A DNA stretch of 33,011 bases from Flavobacteriales bacterium (GTDB taxonomy: Bacteria > Bacteroidota > Bacteroidia > Flavobacteriales > Flavobacteriaceae). The position numbers and the translations under genes were made by a program. The stretch spans positions 1 through 33,011 of the forward strand of contig JAMOMQ010000101.1 of the NCBI GenBank assembly GCA_027066995.1, in the 5' to 3' direction. Shown piece after piece: positions 3,058-33,011 of the stretch (its first letter is position 1; every line of letters begins with the position of its first letter). The notes below the pieces were generated by a model. The model ran no database searches. It saw nothing but the letters and a program-made list of their open reading frames with translations, and had not been told where the DNA came from.

Positions 3058-4479
3058 TTATAATGAAAATTTGATTTCCAAGTCCTTGTAAAATTTGTTA
3101 AAATCTTTATCCACTTTTTTTAGTCCGTCTATGGTTTTGCAGGCGTGCAACACCGTTGCATGATTACGGTTACCGATATTTTTTCCAATCTCGGCATAAG
3201 GTTTATTGGTTATTTTTTTGGCAAAATACATGGCAAATTGACGGGCTTGCACAATTTCTCTTTTACGCGATTTGGATTGGATATCGGCAACATCAATATT
3301 GAAATATTTGGCCACAACCTCTTTTATCATGTTGATAGAATAGATTTTTTTGGTCTGCTTGACATAATTTTGGATAATTTCTTTGGTCAATTCCAAATTG
3401 ATTTCGCGGTGGTCAAATGATGCATGCGCAATCAAAGAAATTATAATGCCTTCCAATTCGCGGATATTGGTTTTGATGCTTTGAGCAATAAATTCAATAA
3501 CGTTTTCGGGCAATTTTACACCGTCTGCATATAATTTATTGAGTATGATTTTTTTTCGGGTTTCATAATCGGGTTTTTGCAATTCGGCTGACAAGCCCCA
3601 TTTAAACCTGGATAACAATCGTTGTTCAATATCTTGCATATCCACCGGTGTTTTGTCGGCGGTTAATACAATTTGCTTTTTGTTTTGGTGCAAATGGTTA
3701 AAAATATGAAAAAAGACGTCCTGGGTGCCGGGTTTGCCCGATAAAAATTGGATGTCATCAACAATCAGCACATCAATCATTTGATAAAAATGAATAAAAT
3801 CATTGCGATTATTGCGTTGTGTGGCTGTGGTATATTGTTGTATAAATTTTTCGGTTGATACATATAAAACCGTTTTGTCAGGGAACCGGCTTTTGACTTC
3901 AACACCAATAGCATTGGCCAGATGGGTTTTGCCCAATCCGACATCGCCATATACCAATAAGGGGTTAAATGAAGTGCCACCGGGTTTTTTTGATACGGCC
4001 ATAGCAGCATTTCTGGCTAAACGGTTAGAATTACCTTCTACAAAATTATCAAATGTATAATGCGGGTTGAGTTGTGAATCTATATGTATTTTCTTTATCC
4101 CGGGAAAAGCAAAGGGGTTTTTGATCTCAGGTACAAAATTTTTGGTGGTTTTGCGATTGACCGTTTCAACTTTTGGTCGGTTGGAACTGGGCAAATCCAT
4201 CAAATGCGATCCGTTTTGAACGGGATCTGCGCTCATTTTAATGCTGTAAATCAATTTGGCATCAGGGCCTATATATTTATTTAAAGCTATTTTTAAGAGT
4301 TGTAAATAGTGCTCTTCAATCCATTCGTAATAAAACTTGCTGGGCACTTGAATTTTTAAAATATTCTCTTTAAAATCAACAGGCACCAACGGCTTGAACC
4401 AAGTTTCATAAGCCACATCATCAATATTATCTTTGATGAAGGCAAGACATTTTTCCCAAATGCTAAGTGCTTGATTCAT
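3058..4479 (-). CDS. dnaA: Chromosomal replication initiator DnaA
   Basis: DnaA is the AAA+ ATPase that binds DnaA boxes and opens the chromosomal origin. The protein is 473 residues, normal for the family. Domain I occupies about residues 1-80 (W-x-K-CLAFIKDNI, TWFKPL), with a short linker to about 130. The AAA+ domain III has Walker A GDVGLGKT (178-185), Walker B LIVDDIQ (238-244) and the arginine-finger segment RLLSRF (287-292). Domain IV carries the DnaA signature, NKPYAEIGK followed by NRNHATVLHAC, at about 425-447. The gene diverges from the thioesterase gene across a 206-bp A+T-rich spacer. I found no TTATCCACA-type box there, so the origin is probably elsewhere. Confidence 0.98.
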   Translation of the reverse strand: MNQALSIWEKCLAFIKDNIDDVAYETWFKPLVPVDFKENILKIQVPSKFYYEWIEEHYLQLLKIALNKYIGPDAKLIYSIKMSADPVQNGSHLMDLPSSNRPKVETVNRKTTKNFVPEIKNPFAFPGIKKIHIDSQLNPHYTFDNFVEGNSNRLARNAAMAVSKKPGGTSFNPLLVYGDVGLGKTHLANAIGVEVKSRFPDKTVLYVSTEKFIQQYTTATQRNNRNDFIHFYQMIDVLIVDDIQFLSGKPGTQDVFFHIFNHLHQNKKQIVLTADKTPVDMQDIEQRLLSRFKWGLSAELQKPDYETRKKIILNKLYADGVKLPENVIEFIAQSIKTNIRELEGIIISLIAHASFDHREINLELTKEIIQNYVKQTKKIYSINMIKEVVAKYFNIDVADIQSKSRKREIVQARQFAMYFAKKITNKPYAEIGKNIGNRNHATVLHACKTIDGLKKVDKDFNKFYKDLEIKFSL

Positions 4480-19278: not shown

Positions 19279-19368
19279 AATAAGCAAACAAACTAACTGA
19301 ATATCTGATAATTATGTTATTTAAGTTTTTAAGTAACCAAATTGTTATTCAATTACAAACACAAGTAT

Positions 19369-22300
19369 ATGAAACATAGTTACATTTTTTTAATTTTTCT
19401 TTATTTTTCTTCGATAACTGGTTTTGCAAATTTATTTGTGCCGCCACCGGTTGACGATACTGCAACCACACCGGTTAATACCCAATTACAAGTGGCTGCT
19501 CCCGGTGTTTTGTCCAATGACGATATTAATGGCAATACGGGTTCAGATTTATCTATATCTCGTTTTACCATAAACGGTACAAACTATCCTCCCGGTCAGC
19601 CTGTTAATATACCCGGAGTCGGTACTTTTGTGATGAATGCCGACGGCAGTTACACTTTTACACCGGATAGTGGTTATACAGGCTCTTTTGATGTGACTTA
19701 TACGGCAACTGACGGGAGTTCTTCTGCTACGGCTGTTTTACATATTACAGTTGGCAATGCCAATAATAATGCACCTGCGCCTCAAGACGATTCCGTTACT
19801 ATTTTTGAAAATACAACACTTAATCAAAATGCCCCCGGTTTATTAAATAATGACTCCGACCCTGATGGAGACCCTTTAACAATTGTTTCTTTTGTTGTAA
19901 ACGGTAATACTTATTCTGCCGGAACAACCGTGCACCTGGCTGAGGGGGATTTGACTATTAATGCCGATGGTAGTTATACCTTTGTGCCTGCAAACGGATA
20001 TACCGGTAATTTGCCAACGGTAACCTATACTGTTAGTGATGGTCAAGATACCGCCACAGCACATTTATATATTACCGTTAGACCCAATGATGCTCCAAAT
20101 GCCAATGACGATTCTTATACCACACTTATTGATACAACCATTAATGAAAATGCTCCGGGCTTATTAGGAAATGATTCCGATCCCGATGGTGACCCTATTA
20201 ATATTATTTCCATTTCAATAGGGGGTAATACCTATTCGCCCGGTCAAACCATAAATTTACCGGAAGGAAATTTGACCATTTATGCCGATGGAAGTTTTAC
20301 CTTTGTACCGGCAAACGGATATACCGGTACAGTTCCGACAGTTACATATACCATTTCTGACGGGGCTGAAATTGACACTGCCAATTTGACGATAATAGTT
20401 CGAGATAATCAACCGCCAACTTTGCAAGACGATGAAGCTATAACCACTGAAGGTGTTACCATTAATGCCGGTGCCCCCGGTGTTTTGGGAAATGATTCCG
20501 ATCCCGACGGTGATCCTTTAACGGTGGTTTCTTTTACGGTTGACGGTAACACTTACTCAGCAGGACAAACGGCTCATTTGGCAGAAGGCGATTTAACTCT
20601 AAACGCTGACGGTAGTTATACATTTGTGCCTGCATCAGGTTATGTAGGACTTGTGCCAACCGTCACTTATACGGCCAGTGATGGTTTTGATACAGGCACT
20701 GCAGAATTGAATATTATTGTTGATTATGTCAATACGGACCCCGAAATATATATAAGTAGTTGTAACCAAGGTTATACCGCTTCGGGATATTACAAAATTT
20801 ATTATGATGTTTATGTCTTTAACCATAGTTATGCTTATGGTGCACAAAATCTGCAAATAACTAACGATTTAAATGCCATATTCGGTTATCATTGTATTGT
20901 AGATATTGATAGAATGTGGCTGGATTCCGGAAATACATTAGCCGGAAGTACTGATCCTGCCATGTATAATGCCAGTTCTTGGGATACCAACGAGTATGAT
21001 GAAAGTGATCCCAGTCCGGGACGTGACGGTATTTTTAATGCTGCTGCTGTTGCAAACAATACTTTATACCCCCGTCAGTATATAACATTTGGGGTTTGTA
21101 TATTAGTAGATCCCAATTGTGCCGGTGGTGCCGGTACAGGATCCGGTAATGGTGTAACTTTTGATAATGTCTTTGATTTGACATCATCTATCGGTAATTC
21201 TACAGAACACTTGTCAATAAGTGATTTTCACACTTCACAAACCACAGTAGCCGGCGGTATTCATGTGCCGGTAGATACGCCACCTATTAATGCAGACGGA
21301 ACTTATGATTTTGATTTGGTTGTAACTTTGACAAATGACGGTTCTAATACAGCCAACAATGTGCAATTTTTCTTGCCATTATATGAATTTACGGCCAACG
21401 GTATACCTATAAACTCGCAAGTCATCACTCAAACCGGTGGTCCCGGGCTTGCAACCAATGCCTCGTATGACGGAGGCGATACAACCGGTACCAATACAGG
21501 TATTTTGGCCAATAACCAAAGTTTGGCTGCCGGACAAACCGTAACTTTTAATATACATTACAATGTAGGGCCTACTTCTTTTAACGGTTACTTAGGTTTT
21601 CATGCCCCTAATCCCAGTATGACGCAAGGTAATGCAGACGTTATCCTCCCCGGTGGCGGTGGTTTGGAAAATCCGGGACAACAATCTTATGTCATTTGGT
21701 CCGATGCATTAGGTAATCATTTAGACCGGTATTATGTATTAGATAATATTACGGATATTCCTTCGTCCGAATCACAATGTACTTGTGATACTAATGGTAT
21801 TACATTGAATTATAATATTCAGTTAAGCGTAGATAAAAGTATTGTCAGTGATGTGCCGGCTGCCAGCAATTTACGTGGTAACCGTGATATCACATTCCAA
21901 ATTACCGTTACTAATAGAAGCAGTTCCAATGTTCAACTTGAAAACCCCACTTTAAGAGATAACTTAGCTGCTATCTGTGATGCCAGCCATATTATACAAG
22001 TGGGCGCTCCGGTAGTTACTGCATCTACGGCTACAGCTACACCCAATATCAATCCGGGTTTTAACGGTATATCCGACACCCATATTTTTGATGATGCGTC
22101 AGGAATTTTACAACCAGGTGAAAGTGTAACGGTACAATTTACAGTAGAATTTGACGATCCTTGTTTTGGTATTAATTATGCCGCTTTTTCTGGCAATGAT
22201 CCGTCAGGACAAAATCCCAACACCCGGTGGGACGGTGTAGAAGTATTGGTTTATCCCGATTTTGATAATGATCACCTGCCTGACAATGTTGATATAGATG

Positions 22301-25300
22301 ACGATAATGATGCAATTTTGGATGTTGATGAAGCTTGCCCCGGATTGGCCGGAGAGTATTATGGCACCAACTATTGGGTTTATAATGTTTTTTCAGCTTT
22401 AAGAAGAGTTTACAATAATACTCCTAAAGCTACTTTTATTGCTACCAGTACTAACTTTAACAACGGTAGTGGTTCTCTGGGTTATTGGACCCACCTACAG
22501 CAATTTTTAGGAGCAGACGCCTCTAGTTTGGATAACGACCCGGACAACAATCGTCGTGGTATTATTTTGTTAAAAGGTTATGTGTATATGCAAGCGGGTA
22601 ATCATAATTTCCGCGTATATGCCGATGATGGCTATCGTATTAAAGTGAATGGAAATATCGTTGCGATAAAAAATCATAATGGTAGCGCTACTACCATAAC
22701 CCATAACTCATTTAATATTCCTCAAACCGGTTATTATCCTATTGAAATTTTGTATTGGGATGCCGGTGGTTCTTACCGTTTTAAAGTAGAAGAGAGACGA
22801 TTGGGTGATGCTTATCACTATTTGGATGACACCAATACATTGCGCGATTGTGATATGGATCAAGACGGGCAAACCAATAATGTTGATTTGGATACGGACA
22901 ATGACGGTTTGACAGATATTTTTGAAGCAGGTGGAACCGATGTTGATCACGATGGACAAGTAGATTATCCGACTTCAGGAGATCCAACAAGTATGAATGA
23001 TGCCGATAATGACGGATTGGACGATGCTTATGACCTAAACCAAGGAGGTACGCCAATACCTAATACAGATTCTGACGGTGATGGTCACCCCGATTTTAGG
23101 GATATTGATAGTGATAACGATGGTATAGTCGATTATATTGAAGCCCAAACTACCTTTGGTCCAATATTATTATCTGGTACTGATGCAGATCATGATGGTA
23201 TTGACGATGCATATGATATTGATGACCTTTTACAATTAGGCATAGGCGGGTTAAATGGAACCTATATAGTTCCAATCAATACCGATGGTGTTGACCAGCC
23301 CGATTATTTGGATGATAACAGTGATAATGATGCAGATTCCGATTATGTTGAAGCTTGGGATGTTAATAATGACACCGTAGCCGATACCAATTATTCAGGA
23401 ATAGATGATGATAATGACGGCTTGGATGATGCCTTTGATACCAATCCTTCATTAGCAGATCCGACTAACGGCAATCAAACGGCATATTACTTCCCCGACA
23501 ATGATACTCCCGGCGGCGATAGAGATTGGCGTGAACAAGCTGCCAAATTGGAAGTTACAAAAGATGACGGTTACCCTTATACACCGCAAGATTTAATAGT
23601 AGGTGACGTGATAACCTATCAAATTCATGTTCATAATACCGGAACAGTACCTTTAAACAATATCAATGTTACCGATGCCAATGCCAATATTGTCAGTGGC
23701 AACCCCATTTCAACCATTGATGCGTATGATACGGTAACACTTATAGCTACACATACGGTAACACAAGCAGATATAGATGCAGGACAAATAGCCAATTCGG
23801 CTACGGCTACCACTACTTATGATGGCGATACCGTTACAGACATTTCAGATGATACAGATCCGGATTCGCCGGCTAATGATGATGACCCGACCATAACATT
23901 TGTTGCCCAGCATCCTGAAATTACAATAACCAAAGATGATCAAATGCCGTATTTGCCACAAAATATTACTTTGGGTCAAGTTATAACTTATCAAATTGTA
24001 GTTAGAAATACAGGTAATGTGACGGTCACCAACATTGTGGTAACCGATGCTAATGCTCAAATACAAGGCAATCCGGTAATTGCTTCATTAGCTCCTAACG
24101 AAACAGCCGTATTGACAGCAACCCATACAGTAACGCAAGCCGAATTGGATGCCGGTTATATTAGTAATCAAGCTGTGGGAACTTTTACTTATGACGGCAC
24201 TGTTTATGATGATGCATCGGACGATTTAGATCCAAGTTCACCTGCCGGTGACGATGATCCTACCATTACCCATATTTTGCAAAGTCCGGCTTTAACCGTT
24301 ACAAAAAATGATCAGTTGCCTTATACCCCACAAAATTTAGTGGTGGGTGATGTTATCACTTATGAAATTTTGGTTACAAATGATGGTAATGTGACTCTAC
24401 CTTTGGTTAATATTACCGATGACAATGGTGTTTTTGTCAGTGGTAATCCCATTACCAATTTGGCACCCGGTGCTACCGGCCGTGTTATAGTGCAACATAC
24501 TGTAACACAAGCGGATTTAGATGCCGGCCAAATCAGTAATTCCGCTGTAGCCTCTACCGATTTTAACGGATCTACTTATTCCGATACATCAGATGATACT
24601 GATCCCGATTCACCGGCAGGAGACAATGATCCCACTATAACCCATTTGGTGCAAAACCCAAGTATTGAAGTAACTAAAGATGATAATTTTGTCTATTTGC
24701 CTCAAAATCTTAATGTTGGTGATGTTATTAATTATGATATAGTAGTTACCAACAATGGTAATGTCAGTTTGCATAATATCAGTGTATCCGACGATAATGC
24801 CACTTTTAGCGGTAGTCCTTCTATTAGTGATTTACCGGTTGGTGCTTCTGCCACTATTACCGCAACACATACTATCACTTATGAGGATATAGATGCCGGT
24901 CAAGTTATAAACTCTGCAGTCGGAACGGTTAATTTCGGGACACAAACCGTATCAGATGTATCCGATGATACCGATCCCGGATCTCCCGGAGGCCCGGATG
25001 ATCCGACTATTACGTATATTCAACAAATTCCGGAATTAACGGTTACTAAAGATGATAACTATCCGGATACTCCGCAAAACTTAGTTGTAGGAGATGTGAT
25101 TACTTATACCATAACCGTTACAAATACCGGCAATGTAACACTTCAAAATATAACAGTAACCGATCCTATAGGAACAGTGGTGTCAGGCAGTCCCATTGCT
25201 ACATTAGCACAAGGACAATCTGCTATAGTTATTGCCAATTATACCATTACGCAGGATGACATTAATAACGGGCAGGTAAGTAACACAGCTATTGCTACTA

Positions 25301-28300
25301 CTGTTTATAATGGTAATACCATTCAAGATTTATCTGATGATACCGATACATCTTCCGGCCCCGGAGATGACGATCCTACCATTACTTATATAGCTCAAAA
25401 TGTAGAACTGACTGTAACTAAAGATGATAACCTCCCGTATAGTCCCCAAAATTTAGCCGTTGGTGATGTTATCACCTACAATATTACCGTAACCAATACA
25501 GGTAATGTAGATTTGCACAGTATTGTGGTAACAGACAGTAATGCCAATATACAAGGAAGCAATACCATTCCTATTTTACATGTCAATGAATCTGTAAATA
25601 TTACAGCAACACATACTATTACACAAGCGGAGCTTGACAATGGACAAGTTATCAACCAAGCTGTTGCCACTGTTATTTATAACGGTGTTAGTATCAGTGA
25701 TTTGTCTGATGATACCGATTTGTCTTCTCCTTCCGGAAACGACGATCCAACTATTACTTCTTTGGTTCGTAATCCCGCATTGGAAGTAACCAAAGATGAC
25801 CAATTGCCATATACGCCTCAAAACTTATCGGTTGGTGATATTATTACTTATCATATTTATGTGCGTAATACAGGTAATATGACTTTGCAAAATATTACGG
25901 TTTCCGATGCAAACGCTTCTATTGTCAGTGGTAATCCAATATTAAACTTAGCACCCGGTGCCACTGCTATGGTTGTCGCCGAACACAGTGTAACCCAAGC
26001 TGATATTGATGCCGGACAAGTGAGTAACTCTGCTGTTGCATCGGTAGATTTTAACGGACACAATTACTCTGACACTTCCGATGATACCGATGCGGGATCG
26101 CCGGCAGGTGATGATGACCCGACCATCACATTTATAATACAAACACCCGGTTTTGTGGTAACCAAAGATGATCAATTGGCATATATACCTCAAAACTTAG
26201 CCGTTGGAGATACAATTCACTATAATATTTATGTTACCAATACGGGCAATGTGACCTTAAATAACGTGATTATTAATGACAATAATGCAAGTTTTACCGG
26301 AAGTAATGTTATCAATACGCTTAATGTCAATGCTACCGAAGTTATACAAGCCACTCATGTGGTAACTTTGGCCGATATTGATGCCGGACAAGTCAGCAAT
26401 AGTGCTACAGGTACAGTAACCTATCATAATGTGGATTATACCGATGTGTCTGATGATACCGACCCAAATGCACCGGCTAACGATGATGATCCTACAATTA
26501 CGTTTATTGCACAACATCCCGAGATTACCATAACCAAAGATGATCAATTAGATTATTCGGCTCACAATTTAGCTCCGGGCGATATAATAGCTTACGAAAT
26601 TATAGTTACCAATACCGGTAATGTTACTTTGGGTAATATTGATGTAACCGATGCTAATGCCAATATTACCTCAGGCTTACCAATTACAAGCTTAGCTCCG
26701 GGTAATTCGGCAACTATTACTGCAACACATACTGTGACACAAACGGAAATTGATAATGGTCAAGTTATCAATCAAGCTGTTGGCACTACCACTTATAACG
26801 GAAGTAATATTTCCGACTTATCCGATGATACCGATCCTTTATCACCGGGAGGCGAAGATGATCCTACGATAACGTATATCGGACAAAATGCAGCTTTAGA
26901 AGTAACCAAAGATGATCAACTGCCGTATACACCTCAAAATTTTGTGGTGGGTGATGTAATAACTTATCTTATAACCATAAAAAATATCGGTAATATAAAT
27001 CTGTATAATATTCATGTCAATGATAATAATGCTACTATTCAGGGGAGCAATTTAATTTCCAGTTTGGCACCGGGTGAAACCACTACGGTTACAGCAACCC
27101 ACAGCATTACACAAGCCGAAATTGATGCAGGACAAGTTATAAATACTGCAGTGGCTACCGTTACCATTGGTGGTATACAATATACCGATTTGTCAGATGA
27201 CACTGATATAAGTTCGCCTAACGGTGATAATGATCCGACTATTACTCATATAGCCCAAAATCCGGAAATGGAAGTAACCAAAGATGATCATTTACCATAT
27301 ACGGCGCAAAACTTACAAGTAGGTGATGTTATCAATTACACTATTAAAGTTACCAATACCGGTAATGTTACGCTGCCGGTAATAAATATGACAGATAATA
27401 ATGCCAGTATTACCAGCGGTACTCCTATTCAAAATTTGGCTCCCGGTAGCACGGCTACTGTCACAGCTACACACACAGTAACTCAAGCGGATATCAATGC
27501 CGGTCAAATTGTAAATTCTGCTACAGCATCGGCACCATTCAACGGTCTGACATATACCGATGATTCAGATGATACTGACCCCGGATCGCCACAAGCAGGA
27601 CAAGATGATCCGACTATTACTCATATCGTTCAAAATCCCGGCATGGAAATTTTTAAAGATGACGGATACACATATTTACCGCAGAATTTAGCGGTAGGTG
27701 ACGTCATTACCTATAATATTACCGTTAGCAATACCGGTAATGTCGATTTGCATAATATCATTTTAACCGATACCAATGCTCAAATTCAAGGTTTGAATAT
27801 GATACCCAACTTAGGTGTGGGGCAAACACAAAGTTTTACGGCTACCCATGCCGTTACTCAGGATGATATCAATACCGGCTTTGTAAGCAATTCTGCTGTC
27901 GGAACTTGTAACTTTAACGGACAAGTGGTTTCTGATACTTCGGATGATACGGATGTCAGTTCACCAGGTGGAAATGATGATCCGACTATCACTCATATAG
28001 TCCGTGCGCCTTCATTGGTTGTTTTAAAAGATGATAATTATGATTATGTACCTCAAGATTTGCATGTAGGTGATGTCATTACTTATCAAATAACGGTTGT
28101 AAACAACGGTAATGTTACTTTGGATAATGTTGTTGTTACCGATAGCAATGCCAATATAGTATCCGGAACCCCCATTGCAACCTTAGATCCCGGAAGTTCT
28201 GCCAATGTTATTGCCAATCATTTGGTAACTCAAGCCGATATTGATGCCGGCCAAGTAATCAATTCCGCTACGGCGACAACTGATTTTAACGGCACGGCAG

Positions 28301-31300
28301 TAACTGATCTGTCAGATGATGCGGATCCTTTATCACCTGCTGGTCCTGATGATAATACCATTACTTTTATCACACAAAATGCAGAGTTGACTGTTACCAA
28401 AAATGACGGTATGGATTACTCCGAACAACACCTCAATGTTGGTGATGTTATAACTTATACCATTGTAGTTACCAATTCCGGAAATGTAACGCTATCAAAC
28501 ATTATCGTAACCGATCCTAATGCCCAAATTCAAGGTAGCAATATAATCAACACTTTGGCTCCGGGCGAAATAGCAACATTAACAGCAACTCATGTCATTA
28601 CTCAAAATGAAATGAATGCCGGTATTATTTATAATCAAGCGACTGCTCAAGTTAATTATAACGCCACAACTATATCTGATCTGTCAGATGATACGGATTT
28701 ATCTTCTCCTTCGGGCGAAGACGATCCTACCATCACACATTTATTCAGGTATGCGGGGATAGAAGTAACCAAAGATGATCAATTACCCTATGCCCCTCAA
28801 AATTTGCATGTAGGTGATATCATAAACTATCATATAAATGTGACCAATACCGGTAATGTTACGCTTAATTTGGTAAATGTATCTGACAATAATGCCAATA
28901 TCATCAGTGGTAATCCCATTGTAGATATTCAACCCGGTGCTACTATGATAGTTACGGCACAACATACGGTTACACAAGCAGATATTGACGCCGGTCAGAT
29001 TGTTAATTCTGCAACTGCCCAGACCTCGTTTAACGGTCAAAATTATGTTGATATTTCCGATGATACCGATCCTGATTCACCCAATGGTGTTGATGATCCG
29101 ACCATCACCCATATTGTCCAAACACCACAATTTGAAATTACCAAAGATGACGGCTTGCCGTATGTCGATCAAAATATTCAAGTAGGCGATGTCATTCAAT
29201 ATCTTATCAATATAACCAATACCGGAAATGTTACATTACATAATATAGATATGAGTGATGACAATGCCAATATTATAGGCAGTCATATTATAACCGACTT
29301 GGATCCCGGACAAACAGTCAGCATCAATGCCACTCATAATGTGACTCAAGCCGATATTGATGCAGGTATAATCAGTAATCAAGCTGCCGGCACTTGTCTG
29401 TTTGACGGACAAGACATTAACGATTTGTCTGATGATGCCGATATAAATGCACCACCGGGGGCGGACGATCCTACCTTAACACATATCAACAGACATCCGG
29501 AATTAACCGTAACCAAAGATGATAATTTGCCTTATATACCTCAAAACTTGGGAGTGGGTGATGTAATTGTTTACAATATCACGGTTACCAATACCGGTAA
29601 TGTCACCTTGACCAATATAGATGTAACAGATGCTAATGCAGTCATTGCTTCCGGCAACAATATAGGAAGTCTCGATCCGGGTGAAGCGGTTTCCATTTCA
29701 GCTACCCATACTATTACCCAAGCCGATTTAGATGCCGGCATGGTTAGCAATTCAGCTGTGGCCACAACCACATTTGACGGGCAAACCGTTATGGATACTT
29801 CGGATGATACTGATCCGGATTCGCCGTCAGGTCAAGATGATCCGACTATTACCATGTTGATACAAACGGCAGAACTTACGGTTACCAAAGATGACCAACT
29901 GCCTTATACAGATCAAACTTTAGCAGTAGGTGATGATATTAATTATATTATTACCGTAACCAACACCGGTAATGTAACTTTGCAAAATATTGTTGTTTCT
30001 GATAACAATGCTAATATTACCGGAAACAGTCTTATTACCGATTTGGCACCGGGCGAATTTGTTAACATTAATGCGGTTCACCAGGTAACTCAGGCCGATA
30101 TAGATGCAGGTGAAGTAATCAATTCGGCTTTAGCTACCGTGCAATATGCAGGTAATACCGTAAGCGATTTATCAGATGACCTCGATAGCGGTGCTCCGCT
30201 TGGTGATGATGATCCGACAATTACGCATATTAAACAACTGCCGGCTATAGAAGTTACCAAAGATGATCAACTGGCTTATACACCTCAAAATATGTCAGTT
30301 GGCGATGTTATTCAATATCAAATTATTGTAAAAAATACCGGTAATGTCACCTTCCCGTTGGTCAATGTTAGCGATAATAATGCCAGTATTGTAAGTGGTA
30401 ATCCGGTTACAAATTTGGTTCCCGGCAATACCGCTACAATTATAGCAACACATACAATTACACAAATTGATTTGGATTTAGGTTTTGTAAGTAACGTAGC
30501 TACGGTTACTGCTGATTTTAATCATCAAACTTATCATGATTTGTCCGATGATACCGACCCTGATTCTCCGGCCGGCCCCGATGATCCTACCATTACGCAT
30601 TTGGTTCAGAATCCGGTATTAACTTTGACCAAAGATGATTTGTTGCCTTATACCAATCAAAATTTGGCTGTAGGAGATGTGATTCATTATAATATTTATG
30701 TATCTAATGAAGGAAATGTCAGCTTGACCAACATAGTGGTAACAGATGACAATGCTACGATAACAGGTAGTAATGCAATCGCTGTTTTACCAGTAGGGCA
30801 AACTGCTACTATACAAGCAACTCATATTGTGACTCAGGCTGATATAGATGCCGGTTTTGTTAGTAATTCGGCAACCGGAACAACAATTTTTAACAATACG
30901 GATATTTCCGATATCAGTGATGATACAGATCCGTTTGCGCCTCCCGGTTTAGATGACCCTACGATTACACATATCAATCAGAATCCGAGTATTGTAGTGA
31001 CTAAGGATGATCAAAAAGATTATACGCCGCAAAATTTAGCTGTAGGTGATGTCATTACTTATAATATTTATGTTACTAATACAGGTAATGTAACACTGAA
31101 TGATATCAATCTTACCGATAACAATGCTCAAATTGTATCTGGTAATCCCATTGGCACATTGCCTCCCGGGTATACCGAAACCGTGGTTGCTACGCATGTA
31201 GTTACCCAAGCTGATATTGATGCCGGAAAAGTCATCAATAGTGCCACAGCAGTAACTTTCTTTAACAACAATAGTATAACTGATATATCCGATGACACGG

Positions 31301-33011
31301 ATATAGCTTCACCCTCCGGTAGTGATGATCCTACGGTTACTTTTATACTACAACGTCCTGAAGTAACTGTTTTAAAAGATGATCAATTAGATTATTCGCC
31401 TCAAAATTTACAGGTTGGTGATGTAATTAATTATCAAATCATAGTCAAAAATACCGGTAATGTCAGTTTGCAAAACATTAAAATTACAGACAATAATGCT
31501 TTATTAAGTAATAACGGACATGAATTTATAATACCGGCTTTGGATATCAACGAAGTTTATACTATTTCCGCGACGCATACCGTTACCCAAGCAGATATTA
31601 ATGCCGGTCAATATATCAATGCGGCACAAGCCAGTTTGCAATACAATGGTAATGATGTATCCGACTGGTCCGACGATGTTGATTTATTATCGCCGGCCGG
31701 CCCCGATGACCCTACCGTAACACATATATTGCAAACACCGGCTATGACGGTTACCAAAGATGACCAATTGCCGTATAGCCCTCAAAATTTACAAGTAGGA
31801 GATGTGGTTACTTATCGTATTGTTGTTAAAAATACCGGAAATGTAATTTTAGATTTAATTACCATAACGGACAACAATGCCAATATTATTAGTGGTAATC
31901 CCATTACCAATTTATATCCCGGACAACAAAGTATTGTAATGGCAGAGCACACTATTACCCAAGCCGACATTGATGCCGGTCAAATTACCAATCAAGCTAT
32001 TGCATCTACCATATTTAACGGACTGACTTATTTAGAATTGTCTGACGATCCCGATCCGGATGCTCCCTCAGGTGACCACGATGCTACGATTACTACTATT
32101 GCTCAAAATCCTAGTATCTCTATTACCAAAGATGATCAAATGCCGTATACCGCTCAAGTTTTAAATGTTAATGATGTCATCACATATAACATTGTAGTGA
32201 CTAATGATGGTAATGTCAGTTTAAATCATATAGAGATAACCGATGCAAACGCCACTATTCAAGGCAGTCCTATCATTCCGTCATTATTGCCCGGCGAATC
32301 ACATACCATTATTGCAACCCATACGGTAACGCAATTAGATATAGACACCGGTCATATTATCAATCAAGCCGAAGGTATTTGTAGTTTCAACAATGCCGAT
32401 GTTACGGATTTATCCGATGATACGGATATCAACTCACCTATTGGTGATGACGACCCTACGATAACAACTATAATTCAAAATCCTGTTATTACCGTCTTTA
32501 AAGACGATCAATTGGATTATTCCGACCAAAATTTAGTGGTAGGTGATGTGATTCATTATCAAATTACGGTGCATAATGATGGCAATACAACTTTGCACGA
32601 TATTCAAATAACCGATCAAAATGCCGATATTATTTCGGGTAATCCAATTTTGGTATTAAATCCGGGAGACACTGCTACTGTTTTAGCAGAGCATACCGTT
32701 ACCCAAGCCGATATTGATGCCGGACAAATCAGCAATTCGGCTTTGGCAGAAACTTTGTTTGGTAATACGGTAGTTTCCGACTTATCAGATGATACCGACC
32801 CTAATGCACCTTTAGGATTGGATGACCCGACTATTACACATATTGTAAGGACCCCCGGATTGACAGTTACCAAGGACGACCGTTTAGATATGGTGCCTCA
32901 AGATTTGTCAGTGGGAGATGTAATTGATTATCAAATTATAGTCACTAACTCGGGTAATGTTACCTTGTATAACATCACGGTAACTGACGACAATGCCCAG
33001 TTTACGGGTTC
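19369..33011 (+). CDS. Giant secreted cadherin-like/PA14/DUF7507-repeat surface protein, 3' end cut
   Basis: One frame stays open to the window edge: at least 4,547 residues with no stop. An in-frame TAA at 19330 makes ATG 19369 the first start. It opens with a signal peptide (about residues 1-20, ITGFA). Four cadherin-like repeats follow (about 28-453), then a region with most of the cysteines (about 460-960), a short DxDxD run (about 964-990), a PA14 domain (about 995-1140), more DxDxDG repeats (about 1160-1365) and the Ig-like array from residue 1395 onward. Similar architectures in Bacteroidota are exported by type IX secretion and act as adhesins or filaments; the sorting domain would be past the window. 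Function is inferred from architecture only. Codon use and base composition look like the neighbours, so recent transfer is not indicated. Confidence 0.95.
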   Translation, partial: MKHSYIFLIFLYFSSITGFANLFVPPPVDDTATTPVNTQLQVAAPGVLSNDDINGNTGSDLSISRFTINGTNYPPGQPVNIPGVGTFVMNADGSYTFTPDSGYTGSFDVTYTATDGSSSATAVLHITVGNANNNAPAPQDDSVTIFENTTLNQNAPGLLNNDSDPDGDPLTIVSFVVNGNTYSAGTTVHLAEGDLTINADGSYTFVPANGYTGNLPTVTYTVSDGQDTATAHLYITVRPNDAPNANDDSYTTLIDTTINENAPGLLGNDSDPDGDPINIISISIGGNTYSPGQTINLPEGNLTIYADGSFTFVPANGYTGTVPTVTYTISDGAEIDTANLTIIVRDNQPPTLQDDEAITTEGVTINAGAPGVLGNDSDPDGDPLTVVSFTVDGNTYSAGQTAHLAEGDLTLNADGSYTFVPASGYVGLVPTVTYTASDGFDTGTAELNIIVDYVNTDPEIYISSCNQGYTASGYYKIYYDVYVFNHSYAYGAQNLQITNDLNAIFGYHCIVDIDRMWLDSGNTLAGSTDPAMYNASSWDTNEYDESDPSPGRDGIFNAAAVANNTLYPRQYITFGVCILVDPNCAGGAGTGSGNGVTFDNVFDLTSSIGNSTEHLSISDFHTSQTTVAGGIHVPVDTPPINADGTYDFDLVVTLTNDGSNTANNVQFFLPLYEFTANGIPINSQVITQTGGPGLATNASYDGGDTTGTNTGILANNQSLAAGQTVTFNIHYNVGPTSFNGYLGFHAPNPSMTQGNADVILPGGGGLENPGQQSYVIWSDALGNHLDRYYVLDNITDIPSSESQCTCDTNGITLNYNIQLSVDKSIVSDVPAASNLRGNRDITFQITVTNRSSSNVQLENPTLRDNLAAICDASHIIQVGAPVVTASTATATPNINPGFNGISDTHIFDDASGILQPGESVTVQFTVEFDDPCFGINYAAFSGNDPSGQNPNTRWDGVEVLVYPDFDNDHLPDNVDIDDDNDAILDVDEACPGLAGEYYGTNYWVYNVFSALRRVYNNTPKATFIATSTNFNNGSGSLGYWTHLQQFLGADASSLDNDPDNNRRGIILLKGYVYMQAGNHNFRVYADDGYRIKVNGNIVAIKNHNGSATTITHNSFNIPQTGYYPIEILYWDAGGSYRFKVEERRLGDAYHYLDDTNTLRDCDMDQDGQTNNVDLDTDNDGLTDIFEAGGTDVDHDGQVDYPTSGDPTSMNDADNDGLDDAYDLNQGGTPIPNTDSDGDGHPDFRDIDSDNDGIVDYIEAQTTFGPILLSGTDADHDGIDDAYDIDDLLQLGIGGLNGTYIVPINTDGVDQPDYLDDNSDNDADSDYVEAWDVNNDTVADTNYSGIDDDNDGLDDAFDTNPSLADPTNGNQTAYYFPDNDTPGGDRDWREQAAKLEVTKDDGYPYTPQDLIVGDVITYQIHVHNTGTVPLNNINVTDANANIVSGNPISTIDAYDTVTLIATHTVTQADIDAGQIANSATATTTYDGDTVTDISDDTDPDSPANDDDPTITFVAQHPEITITKDDQMPYLPQNITLGQVITYQIVVRNTGNVTVTNIVVTDANAQIQGNPVIASLAPNETAVLTATHTVTQAELDAGYISNQAVGTFTYDGTVYDDASDDLDPSSPAGDDDPTITHILQSPALTVTKNDQLPYTPQNLVVGDVITYEILVTNDGNVTLPLVNITDDNGVFVSGNPITNLAPGATGRVIVQHTVTQADLDAGQISNSAVASTDFNGSTYSDTSDDTDPDSPAGDNDPTITHLVQNPSIEVTKDDNFVYLPQNLNVGDVINYDIVVTNNGNVSLHNISVSDDNATFSGSPSISDLPVGASATITATHTITYEDIDAGQVINSAVGTVNFGTQTVSDVSDDTDPGSPGGPDDPTITYIQQIPELTVTKDDNYPDTPQNLVVGDVITYTITVTNTGNVTLQNITVTDPIGTVVSGSPIATLAQGQSAIVIANYTITQDDINNGQVSNTAIATTVYNGNTIQDLSDDTDTSSGPGDDDPTITYIAQNVELTVTKDDNLPYSPQNLAVGDVITYNITVTNTGNVDLHSIVVTDSNANIQGSNTIPILHVNESVNITATHTITQAELDNGQVINQAVATVIYNGVSISDLSDDTDLSSPSGNDDPTITSLVRNPALEVTKDDQLPYTPQNLSVGDIITYHIYVRNTGNMTLQNITVSDANASIVSGNPILNLAPGATAMVVAEHSVTQADIDAGQVSNSAVASVDFNGHNYSDTSDDTDAGSPAGDDDPTITFIIQTPGFVVTKDDQLAYIPQNLAVGDTIHYNIYVTNTGNVTLNNVIINDNNASFTGSNVINTLNVNATEVIQATHVVTLADIDAGQVSNSATGTVTYHNVDYTDVSDDTDPNAPANDDDPTITFIAQHPEITITKDDQLDYSAHNLAPGDIIAYEIIVTNTGNVTLGNIDVTDANANITSGLPITSLAPGNSATITATHTVTQTEIDNGQVINQAVGTTTYNGSNISDLSDDTDPLSPGGEDDPTITYIGQNAALEVTKDDQLPYTPQNFVVGDVITYLITIKNIGNINLYNIHVNDNNATIQGSNLISSLAPGETTTVTATHSITQAEIDAGQVINTAVATVTIGGIQYTDLSDDTDISSPNGDNDPTITHIAQNPEMEVTKDDHLPYTAQNLQVGDVINYTIKVTNTGNVTLPVINMTDNNASITSGTPIQNLAPGSTATVTATHTVTQADINAGQIVNSATASAPFNGLTYTDDSDDTDPGSPQAGQDDPTITHIVQNPGMEIFKDDGYTYLPQNLAVGDVITYNITVSNTGNVDLHNIILTDTNAQIQGLNMIPNLGVGQTQSFTATHAVTQDDINTGFVSNSAVGTCNFNGQVVSDTSDDTDVSSPGGNDDPTITHIVRAPSLVVLKDDNYDYVPQDLHVGDVITYQITVVNNGNVTLDNVVVTDSNANIVSGTPIATLDPGSSANVIANHLVTQADIDAGQVINSATATTDFNGTAVTDLSDDADPLSPAGPDDNTITFITQNAELTVTKNDGMDYSEQHLNVGDVITYTIVVTNSGNVTLSNIIVTDPNAQIQGSNIINTLAPGEIATLTATHVITQNEMNAGIIYNQATAQVNYNATTISDLSDDTDLSSPSGEDDPTITHLFRYAGIEVTKDDQLPYAPQNLHVGDIINYHINVTNTGNVTLNLVNVSDNNANIISGNPIVDIQPGATMIVTAQHTVTQADIDAGQIVNSATAQTSFNGQNYVDISDDTDPDSPNGVDDPTITHIVQTPQFEITKDDGLPYVDQNIQVGDVIQYLINITNTGNVTLHNIDMSDDNANIIGSHIITDLDPGQTVSINATHNVTQADIDAGIISNQAAGTCLFDGQDINDLSDDADINAPPGADDPTLTHINRHPELTVTKDDNLPYIPQNLGVGDVIVYNITVTNTGNVTLTNIDVTDANAVIASGNNIGSLDPGEAVSISATHTITQADLDAGMVSNSAVATTTFDGQTVMDTSDDTDPDSPSGQDDPTITMLIQTAELTVTKDDQLPYTDQTLAVGDDINYIITVTNTGNVTLQNIVVSDNNANITGNSLITDLAPGEFVNINAVHQVTQADIDAGEVINSALATVQYAGNTVSDLSDDLDSGAPLGDDDPTITHIKQLPAIEVTKDDQLAYTPQNMSVGDVIQYQIIVKNTGNVTFPLVNVSDNNASIVSGNPVTNLVPGNTATIIATHTITQIDLDLGFVSNVATVTADFNHQTYHDLSDDTDPDSPAGPDDPTITHLVQNPVLTLTKDDLLPYTNQNLAVGDVIHYNIYVSNEGNVSLTNIVVTDDNATITGSNAIAVLPVGQTATIQATHIVTQADIDAGFVSNSATGTTIFNNTDISDISDDTDPFAPPGLDDPTITHINQNPSIVVTKDDQKDYTPQNLAVGDVITYNIYVTNTGNVTLNDINLTDNNAQIVSGNPIGTLPPGYTETVVATHVVTQADIDAGKVINSATAVTFFNNNSITDISDDTDIASPSGSDDPTVTFILQRPEVTVLKDDQLDYSPQNLQVGDVINYQIIVKNTGNVSLQNIKITDNNALLSNNGHEFIIPALDINEVYTISATHTVTQADINAGQYINAAQASLQYNGNDVSDWSDDVDLLSPAGPDDPTVTHILQTPAMTVTKDDQLPYSPQNLQVGDVVTYRIVVKNTGNVILDLITITDNNANIISGNPITNLYPGQQSIVMAEHTITQADIDAGQITNQAIASTIFNGLTYLELSDDPDPDAPSGDHDATITTIAQNPSISITKDDQMPYTAQVLNVNDVITYNIVVTNDGNVSLNHIEITDANATIQGSPIIPSLLPGESHTIIATHTVTQLDIDTGHIINQAEGICSFNNADVTDLSDDTDINSPIGDDDPTITTIIQNPVITVFKDDQLDYSDQNLVVGDVIHYQITVHNDGNTTLHDIQITDQNADIISGNPILVLNPGDTATVLAEHTVTQADIDAGQISNSALAETLFGNTVVSDLSDDTDPNAPLGLDDPTITHIVRTPGLTVTKDDRLDMVPQDLSVGDVIDYQIIVTNSGNVTLYNITVTDDNAQFTG
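19450..20727 (+). repeat. Four cadherin-like (tandem-95/VCBS-type) repeats
   Basis: Four copies of about 100 residues, at roughly residues 28-128, 137-235, 241-344 and 350-453. The shared pattern is APGxLxNDSDPDGDPLTI, then NG-TYS-G, then LTINADGSYTFVPANGY, then TVTYTxSDG and a closing ThxI-V strand. Copy 1 is the most divergent (NDDINGNTGSD for the Ca-type loop). The NDSDPDGDP loop is a probable Ca-binding site. Such repeats form extended rods in bacterial adhesins. Confidence 0.88.
22258..23470 (+). other. Ca-binding DxDxDG repeats interrupted by a PA14 domain
   Basis: Thrombospondin-3-like Asp-rich repeats appear first at about 22258-22335 (DIDDDNDAILDVDEAC), stop for the PA14 domain, then resume at about 22846 (DMDQDGQ, DTDNDGLTD, DADNDGLDD, DSDGDGHPD, DSDNDGIVD, DADHDGIDD, DDDNDGLDD). 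Cys990 and Cys1161 lie immediately before and after the PA14 domain and could pair. These loops normally bind calcium and stiffen the chain. Confidence 0.85.
22351..22788 (+). other. PA14 domain within the giant protein
   Basis: Residues about 995-1140 have the PA14 layout: GEYYGTNYW at the start, a central RRGIILLKGYVYMQAGNHNF segment ending in RVYADDGYRIKVNG (the A-D-D-G carbohydrate/Ca loop), and TGYYPIEILYWDAGGSYRF at the end. PA14 domains in adhesins such as yeast flocculins bind glycans through the Asp-Asp loop, which is intact here. This is the likely ligand-binding head of the protein; the ligand is unknown. Confidence 0.82.
23551..33011 (+). repeat. Array of 26 Ig-like DUF11/DUF7507-type repeats (last partial)
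   Basis: Repeats begin near 23551, 23921, 24292, 24661, 25036, 25402, 25780, 26150, 26521, 26890, 27262, 27640, 28010, 28381, 28755, 29125, 29496, 29870, 30241, 30612, 30983, 31357, 31741, 32110, 32482 and 32852. The spacing is 366-384 bp, about 124 residues. Each reads VTKDDxxPYTPQNL, VGDVITYxIxVTNTGNVTL, VTDxNA, TATHTVTQADIDAGQ, NSA, then SDDTDPDSP and DDPTITH. The acidic SDDTD...DDP segment is a probable Ca site at each junction. Repeat 22 carries a short insertion in its central loop. The array continues past the window. Odd and even copies differ in a fixed way (see findings). Confidence 0.93.

Follow-up and report, generated by a model that had tools for sequence, protein, structure and literature searches.

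An old four-domain unit probably underlies the odd/even loop alternation in the DUF7507 array of a putative giant flavobacterial adhesin

Introduction

What is the true repeating unit of a long array of diverged domains, when one conspicuous motif in it alternates from copy to copy? This question is raised by a putative giant adhesin gene in a 33,011-nucleotide stretch of DNA from a Flavobacteriales bacterium (GenBank assembly GCA_027066995.1, contig JAMOMQ010000101.1), hereafter the window, which makes up the whole of contig G000:C101. The assembly comprises 2.34 Mb in 187 contigs. The gene encodes a tandem array of DUF7507 domains, in which a loop glycine changes its position between odd and even repeats. 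A preliminary description of the window took the real unit to be a dimer, pointing either to growth by duplication of pairs or to two faces that must alternate along the rod. Our analysis leads, with good though not full confidence, to a different answer. The array is probably the stalk of a type IX secretion system (T9SS) type B giant adhesin, with 29 Ig-like DUF7507 domains and a higher-order unit of four domains, and is best explained by an old amplification of tetramers that has been kept in phase. The odd/even loop is the most visible layer of this four-domain unit; the array shows how an eye-catching motif can mask a true period longer than its own.

Results and Discussion

An alternating loop in a 29-domain array

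The gene lies in a single open frame (19342-33009, plus strand, first ATG at 19369) that is open at the 3' end of the contig. It is broken there inside repeat 26, and continues and ends on contig G000:C102 (stop at L008:2415), which carries, in order, a piece of repeat 26, repeats 27-29, two longer DUF11-like domains, a T9SS type B C-terminal domain and a PorP/SprF gene. The closest match of the repeat piece was repeat 26 of an ortholog (identity 0.67). The whole gene on the two contigs has 29 DUF7507 repeats. We compared four arrays, namely that of the window's gene (w), that of a complete ortholog of 5356 aa with 29 repeats (o; L039, JALWTX010000006.1), and those of orthologs in genomes G154 (d) and G157 (e), with 33 repeats each. 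All repeat counts leave out the two longer DUF11-like domains that end each of these arrays.

The window holds 25 full copies and a partial 26th, each copy being 124 aa long except repeats 11 (125 aa) and 22 (127 aa). The array starts at 23545 and a pair of repeats measures 744 bp, where 23551 and 742 bp had been given before. The alternating element recurs once in every repeat, at a spacing of 372 bp that is disturbed only by small indels in repeats 11 and 22. Its glycine is at residue 52 in odd and at residue 51 in even repeats, the register being one residue later in the odd ones. In the window, 13 of 13 odd and 12 of 13 even repeats (including partial repeat 26) fitted this rule and the sole exception was repeat 22, as had been described earlier. 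The insertion in repeat 22, which measures three residues, Pro54 in the odd loops and its replacement by Asn in repeat 17 were likewise confirmed. The T-D-x-N-A motif said to precede the loop was present but not universal, as repeats 3 and 5 differ. The chance of 1 in 10 million quoted for the split is arithmetically right, for a position picked, as was admitted, after looking. The insertion in repeat 22 (31360-31740) has no counterpart in the L039 ortholog, and is therefore likely to be a recent change in this lineage.

The alternation was not confined to the window. Over the whole gene the register reads OEOEOEOEOEOEOEOEOEOEO-OEOEB-O (O, Gly52; E, Gly51; B, both; -, neither); all 15 odd repeats fitted, repeat 27 with both glycines, as did 12 of 14 even ones, neither glycine being present in repeats 22 and 28. 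In the four arrays together, the expected glycine was found in 60/64 odd loops (repeat 27 counted as fitting) and in 54/60 even loops. Same-parity repeats exceeded different-parity repeats in identity with z = 9.2 against 4000 shuffles of the order of repeats 1-25, and with z = 4.7 when the loop columns were removed. Several exceptions tell against strictness. Odd repeats d01 and d03 and even repeat e04 carry the other register, even repeat 32 of both d and e does so by column in an irregular loop, and the glycine is lost in d17, in e17 and in repeat 28 both here and in L039. Thus, the alternation is strong and old without being absolute.

A four-domain period outside the loop

Parity accounts for the loop, but not for the rest of the domain. 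With loop columns removed, the identity among repeats 1-25 was 0.568, 0.570, 0.568 and 0.600 at lags 1 to 4, and it peaked again at lag 8 (0.601), lag 12 (0.594) and lag 16 (0.588), giving a unit of four domains of about 1488 bp. Repeats 26-29 of the window's gene were left out of this profile and of the window-array rows of the class test below. Peaks at lags 4, 8 and 12 were found in the orthologous arrays too. The dimer proposed earlier as the real unit was not borne out, since lag 2 is about equal to lag 1 and the peaks fall at multiples of four; growth by duplication of multi-domain blocks was supported, with a block of four domains in place of pairs. Of the observations that the preliminary description had named as evidence against its own dimer, one was indeed made, repeats n and n+2 being no closer than n and n+1 outside the loop, whereas the glycine register does follow parity.

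When repeats were assigned to classes by their number modulo 4 and compared with 4000 order shuffles, loop removed, the class signal had z = 6.7 in the window's own array (repeats 1-25) and z = 8.0 in ortholog o. It persisted within parity (p = 0.00025 or less), lag 4 being better than lag 2 at the same parity. Periods of 3, 5 and 7 gave no signal in the shuffles and were thereby ruled out as the unit; period 6 was weak and appeared only with the loop columns in, and period 8 was positive because it is a multiple of 4. The classes can be recognized at single residues. Residue 39 is Leu or Val instead of Asn in repeats 3, 11, 15, 19, 23 and 27 (6/7 of class 3), Gly88 is present in 7/7 of class 0 (also in repeats 2 and 9, and less regularly in the orthologs), and Val60 in 5/7 of class 0.

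Trees of the repeats gave a similar picture. The split repeat 26 (w26 and the C102 piece) was left out of all trees, and array d out of the tree to which array e was added. In a tree of 57 repeats, odd and even repeats formed one bipartition (support 98/94), and the four classes needed 5 changes (minimum 3; shuffled mean 32.0). In the loop-free tree, classes 3 and 0 each formed one bipartition, at modest support (80/90 and 32/75), and the four classes needed 6 changes in all (shuffled mean 32.1). A clean parity split was obtained with the full domain; without the loop, parity alone needed 5 changes against one each for classes 3 and 0. With array e added to the loop-free tree, the changes were 1 for class 3, 2 for class 0, 3 for class 1, 5 for class 2 and 4 for parity.

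Order and phase are shared by the orthologs

Each of the 29 repeats found its best match in the repeat of the same number in L039, repeat 26 being judged by its first piece, with a mean identity of 77% against 55% off the diagonal. The 33 repeats of d and e are one in-phase tetramer more than 29. When they were compared with the 29-repeat arrays, repeats 1-19 and the last five were in register in every comparison, and repeat 20 in 7 of 8 directions; between repeat 20 and the last five there are four repeats here and eight in d and e. In both d and e, no two tetramers resemble each other more than 6 and 7 do (0.64 and 0.66; means 0.585 and 0.577), which points to the gain of one tetramer by d and e or to its loss in the 29-repeat arrays. 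The search of the genus covered 13 genomes, nine with a match. Four genomes have a full or nearly full array (the window's own being split by the contig gap), G156 has a 3' end, and the rest gave fragments, paralogs or no match. A scan of genome contigs gave two loci; one was the ortholog L039 and the other, L040, a distant relative whose length did not suffice for the period test.

Silent-site identity within the array was 0.31-0.38 at all lags, with no trend by lag. At fourfold silent sites, repeats of the array agreed with each other at 0.35; orthologous repeats agreed at 0.37 and non-orthologous ones at 0.33, where codon usage predicts 0.285-0.295. Recent duplication or gene conversion was ruled out, as silent identity is independent of lag and orthologous repeats correspond one to one. 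One-to-one orthology together with near-saturated silent sites argues for an old amplification.

Several observations weigh against the tetramer reading. The classes are unequal outside the loop; class 3 repeats share 0.651 identity among themselves and 0.569 with the others, whereas for class 1 the two values are 0.579 and 0.572, and its repeats resemble those of class 3 (0.589) no less than they resemble one another. Classes 1 and 2 are scattered on the loop-free tree (5 and 4 changes). A special every fourth repeat therefore fits nearly as well as four distinct classes. The contrast is small in all columns (same-class identity 0.57-0.65 against 0.54-0.56 between classes), and the units are not much more alike than the monomers inside them, which speaks against counting them as super-repeats. 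Because of their common ancestry, the four arrays do not prove the period independently of one another. The in-phase change of copy number is one event only, best matches are mixed in block 21-28, and its breakpoint may lie anywhere from about 18 to 25. Finally, orthologous silent identity (0.37) above the non-orthologous value (0.33) means that saturation is near but not complete.

Two short frames, L102 (G154:C74) and L103 (G157:C135), have an even-type repeat followed by a class-3-type repeat, only the end of the first being present in L102. L102 ends in a different C-terminal domain, presumably one resembling a type A T9SS signal. The arrangement suggests that class identity is older than the array, or that it was copied out of it.

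Alternative explanations

If only an A-B pair repeated and the array grew by duplication of such pairs, the clean loop split by parity and the single odd/even bipartition of the full tree would follow directly. Classes 1 and 3 are also near each other outside the loop (0.589), and paralogs in the genus (G128:C3 and, less clearly, G151) begin with an odd-like and then an even-like repeat, so that the pair may be an older module. However, outside the loop the identity between classes 2 and 0 is low (0.541) and lag 2 brings no gain over lag 1; at the same parity lag 4 exceeds lag 2, and the observed change in copy number was of four repeats. We consider the pair an improbable unit; as the unit of the last amplification it was rejected on the lag profile, the mod-4 test and the loop-free tree, and a dimer step may have preceded the tetramer. 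That the loop merely tolerates two turn positions, with the alternation arising by chance or convergence, would explain the flips in the orthologs and the presence of both turn types in short paralogs, but is very improbable in view of the counts in the window and in the four arrays, and of a period-4 signal that is also found elsewhere in the domain and survives comparison with order shuffles. A collapsed or shuffled assembly might be suspected from the 187 contigs and the break inside repeat 26. Three other assemblies have the same order of diverged repeats in single frames of 5356-5872 aa, and repeats that differ at about 45% of residues are unlikely to be mis-joined; we regard an artefact as close to negligible.

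A functional super-repeat deserves more weight, though it is still unlikely. Here the rod would make use of a period of four domains, in its twist, its lateral packing or the binding of a partner to every fourth domain; the four domain types would differ for that reason, and selection would hold the phase, as in the super-repeats of titin or nebulin. The phase has indeed outlasted a divergence that leaves about 57% identity and nearly saturated silent sites, and a separate four-domain unit exists in another family (L108, described below). Class-specific positions are also better conserved between orthologs than their variability predicts (arrays w and o, residual +0.097, 0 of 10000 draws as high; the d/e pair, residual +0.035, p 0.009). 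There is some circularity in this test, because a persisting class signal was the ground for choosing the positions, and in raw identity between orthologs they match the mean over the whole domain (0.772 and 0.770). The register flips in d01, d03, e04 and repeat 32 of d and e, and the glycine losses in d17, e17 and repeat 28, have moreover been tolerated. These flips weaken the earlier suggestion of two faces that must alternate, while the alternation may have a function. The more specific proposal, that slid turns and class-specific residues set a fixed rod period for side-by-side packing of adhesins or for a partner at every fourth domain, under selection for phase, is rather doubtful; if true, it would be a bacterial counterpart of the titin/nebulin super-repeats in a covalently locked fibre.

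Under the preferred reading of an old tetramer amplification, an odd-type/even-type pair would have arisen before the tetramer, the order of these two steps being itself conjectural, and a four-domain block would then have formed from the pair. The block would have been amplified to about 29-33 domains before the four compared genomes split. All copies would afterwards have diverged with their phase kept, the sole copy-number change seen since being that of a whole block. The main reasons for the persistence of the phase may be the rarity of out-of-phase recombination or slippage and the cost of changes in the turn, rather than a separate function of each face. The array would thus have grown in blocks of four, after which turnover stopped, and order and phase were kept as the silent sites came close to saturation. 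The array can serve as a natural test of whether the order of domains in an adhesin stalk is constrained beyond length and stiffness; the prediction is that indels of four domains are tolerated and those of other sizes are not.

The domain and its alternating hairpin

The repeats belong to DUF7507 (PF24346; 260.4 bits in repeats 1-4 against a cut-off of 27, and 310.5 bits in the part on C102). The available text of PMC12617251 renames this family CLIPPER_2 and predicts an isopeptide bond with the triad Lys72-Asp112-Asn152. The corresponding triad, Lys6-Asp44-Asn84, is present in 124/124 repeats of the four arrays, repeat 26 being read from two pieces; its spacing is +38/+78 here against +40/+80 in that published example. 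Each repeat is therefore predicted from its sequence to be locked by an isopeptide bond.

A structure model of tetramer 2 (mean predicted local distance difference test score, pLDDT, 94.3; predicted template modelling score, pTM, 0.68) places the alternating element in a hairpin right after Asp44. The second strand of the hairpin begins at residue 55 in the two odd repeats and at residue 54 in the two even ones. The first strand covers residues 48-51 in the odd repeats; it spans 48-50 in repeat 6 and shrinks to two residues (48-49) in repeat 8. In the model the turn slides by one residue and the loss is made up on the other strand, in agreement with the length-keeping shift noted earlier. Where a CnaA-like beta-sandwich would be expected of the family, a single-domain model was mostly beta with one short helix (pLDDT 95.2). 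Its fold search in PDB gave no match at E 0.001 or better, the solved CLIPPER structure 9ifr being a weak match (rank 32, E 0.016, template modelling score, TM, 0.46), and the best E in a PDB search by sequence was 0.77. The fold search with the tetramer gave generic multi-domain matches of low TM (ciliary central-apparatus proteins, protocadherins and integrins).

Architecture and secretion context of the gene

The protein begins with a signal-like stretch and four cadherin-like domains, followed by a conserved region that includes a PA14 domain, then Asp-rich repeats, the 29 DUF7507 domains, two DUF11-like domains and the type B C-terminal domain (Table 1). The signal-peptide-like start was judged by reading the sequence alone. 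The PA14 domain (PF07691, cut-off 24) scored 30.7 and 29.2 bits here and 30.1 bits in the ortholog. The Asp-rich D-x-D-x-D-G repeats are presumably akin to thrombospondin type 3 or calcium-binding repeats. Tandem Repeats Finder did not report the DUF7507 array, presumably because its copies are too diverged.

Table 1. Features of the adhesin gene in the window
Feature	Position	Strand	Basis
Giant adhesin gene, 5' part	19369..33009	+	Open reading frame 19342..33009, translation, C102 continuation
N-terminal part, four Big_9 / cadherin-like domains	19369..20736	+	PF17963, 162.3 bits, 4 stretches
Conserved tip region ending in PA14 domain (about 22573-22773)	20737..22845	+	76-86% identity in three orthologs
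Asp-rich D-x-D-x-D-G repeats	22846..23544	+	Read in translation
DUF7507 (CLIPPER_2) array, repeats 1-25 full, repeat 26 cut by contig end	23545..33009	+	PF24346, 260.4 bits in first four repeats
Alternating element in repeat 1, hairpin residues 48-58 directly after Asp44	23686..23718	+	Translation, model
Tetramer 1 (repeats 1-4)	23545..25032	+	Repeat split, period-4 signal
Tetramer 2 (repeats 5-8), structure-modelled tetramer	25033..26520	+	Repeat split; mean pLDDT 94.3
Tetramer 3 (repeats 9-12)	26521..28011	+	Repeat split
Tetramer 4 (repeats 13-16)	28012..29499	+	Repeat split
Tetramer 5 (repeats 17-20)	29500..30987	+	Repeat split
Tetramer 6 (repeats 21-24)	30988..32484	+	Repeat split
Tetramer 7 start (repeat 25, part of 26; rest on C102)	32485..33009	+	Repeat split

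The C-terminal sorting domain is of type B (CHU_C; PF13585, 84.9 bits, cut-off 27; TIGR04131, 51.7 bits, cut-off 35). Directly downstream is a PorP/SprF gene (L008:2421-3335; PF11751, 281.7 bits), and in L039 a 303-aa frame similar in sequence to the SprF-like protein follows the adhesin gene. The genome has SprA (2570 bits), GldJ (768.5 bits) and GldK (544.8 bits), the three components searched, all above cut-off. In the portion of PMC12635249 available to us, the twin-cysteine tail of Flavobacterium johnsoniae SprF is needed for attachment to the gliding track but not for the carrier function. This twin-cysteine motif was not found in the C-tails of L008 (3300-3335) or L039 (21270-21311), where the SprF-like protein ends in RCRPVKYF with one Cys in the tail. 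The stalk and adhesin roles of the protein are inferred. By analogy with SprB/SprF as presented in that portion (PMC12635249), the C-terminus would lie at the outer membrane with the PA14 end distal, and with the C-terminus as the anchor the N-terminal part would be distal. With about 4 nm allowed for each Ig-type domain, a figure used for titin in the accessible text of PMC7427331, arrays of 29-33 domains would span roughly 115-130 nm.

In the rest of the window, dnaA was found at 3058-4479 (minus strand), so that a replication origin may be near. The other genes named by Pfam are ordinary, e.g. histidyl-tRNA synthetase, PdxJ, a FadL-type outer-membrane protein, UvrD helicase, CinA and Tex.

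Other arrays of the domain family

As controls we used 19 non-orthologous DUF7507-type arrays of at least 8 consecutive repeats, taken from good hits and not as a random sample. They comprise 15 arrays, two of which are blocks of one frame (L055), and four more from 15 stretches fetched; L042, a copy of the ortholog, was not counted. In 13 of the 19, neighbours were most alike and identity fell with distance, as expected of local, younger duplication. Five were flat or mixed (L036, L043, both L055 blocks and L110), L110 (G345:C20) with a weak hint of five domains (0.50 at lag 5 against 0.41-0.45 at lags 1-4, p 0.033). The signals of L036 at period 4 (p 0.065) and L047 at period 3 (p 0.031) were read as noise. 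One control, L108 (G349:C43), from another family of the class, has a clear four-domain unit, with identity of 0.71 at lag 4, 0.66 at lag 8 and about 0.42 at the others. Its array of DUF7507/DUF11 type fills about the first 6 kb, with spacings of about 117/127/147/133 aa, and the contig begins inside it. Unlike the window array, L108 has units much more alike than their monomers (0.71 against about 0.42).

In L098 (G159:C164), of the same genus, domain scores for the repeat model alternate between high and low (86, 39, 114, 48, 107, 40 and so on). This is consistent with PMC12617251, whose available text describes DUF11 and DUF7507 as often alternating in tandem.

Comparison with known systems

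The array shares with the DUF7507/CLIPPER_2 proteins of PMC12617251 the domain family, the tandem arrangement in surface proteins and a Lys-Asp-Asn triad at close spacing. It differs in that all 29 domains are of DUF7507 type and that two turn registers alternate inside one family, atop a four-domain unit; the available text of PMC12617251 makes no mention of such a unit. Open-licence literature on higher-order repeats or super-repeats in adhesins and on alternating tandem repeats, at the level of titles and abstract openings, reported no four-domain unit in a stalk of this kind. With the SprB-type T9SS type B adhesins, as far as the consulted portion of PMC12635249 describes them, the locus has in common the type B C-terminal domain, the PorP/SprF gene downstream and SprA, GldJ and GldK in the genome, whereas the tail of the SprF-like protein has one Cys here and the twin-cysteine motif there.

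Titin and nebulin, in the accessible text of PMC7427331 and PMC1553488, are likewise built of small tandem domains with a higher-order unit. The present array is bacterial, its unit is of four, its units are far less alike and no filament with a matching period is known. According to the same text of PMC1553488, nebulin grew seven domains at a time, as seen from a peak of similarity against distance. The process proposed here, multi-domain duplication, and the autocorrelation used to detect it are essentially the same; the array adds to these one-to-one orthology and near-saturated silent sites.

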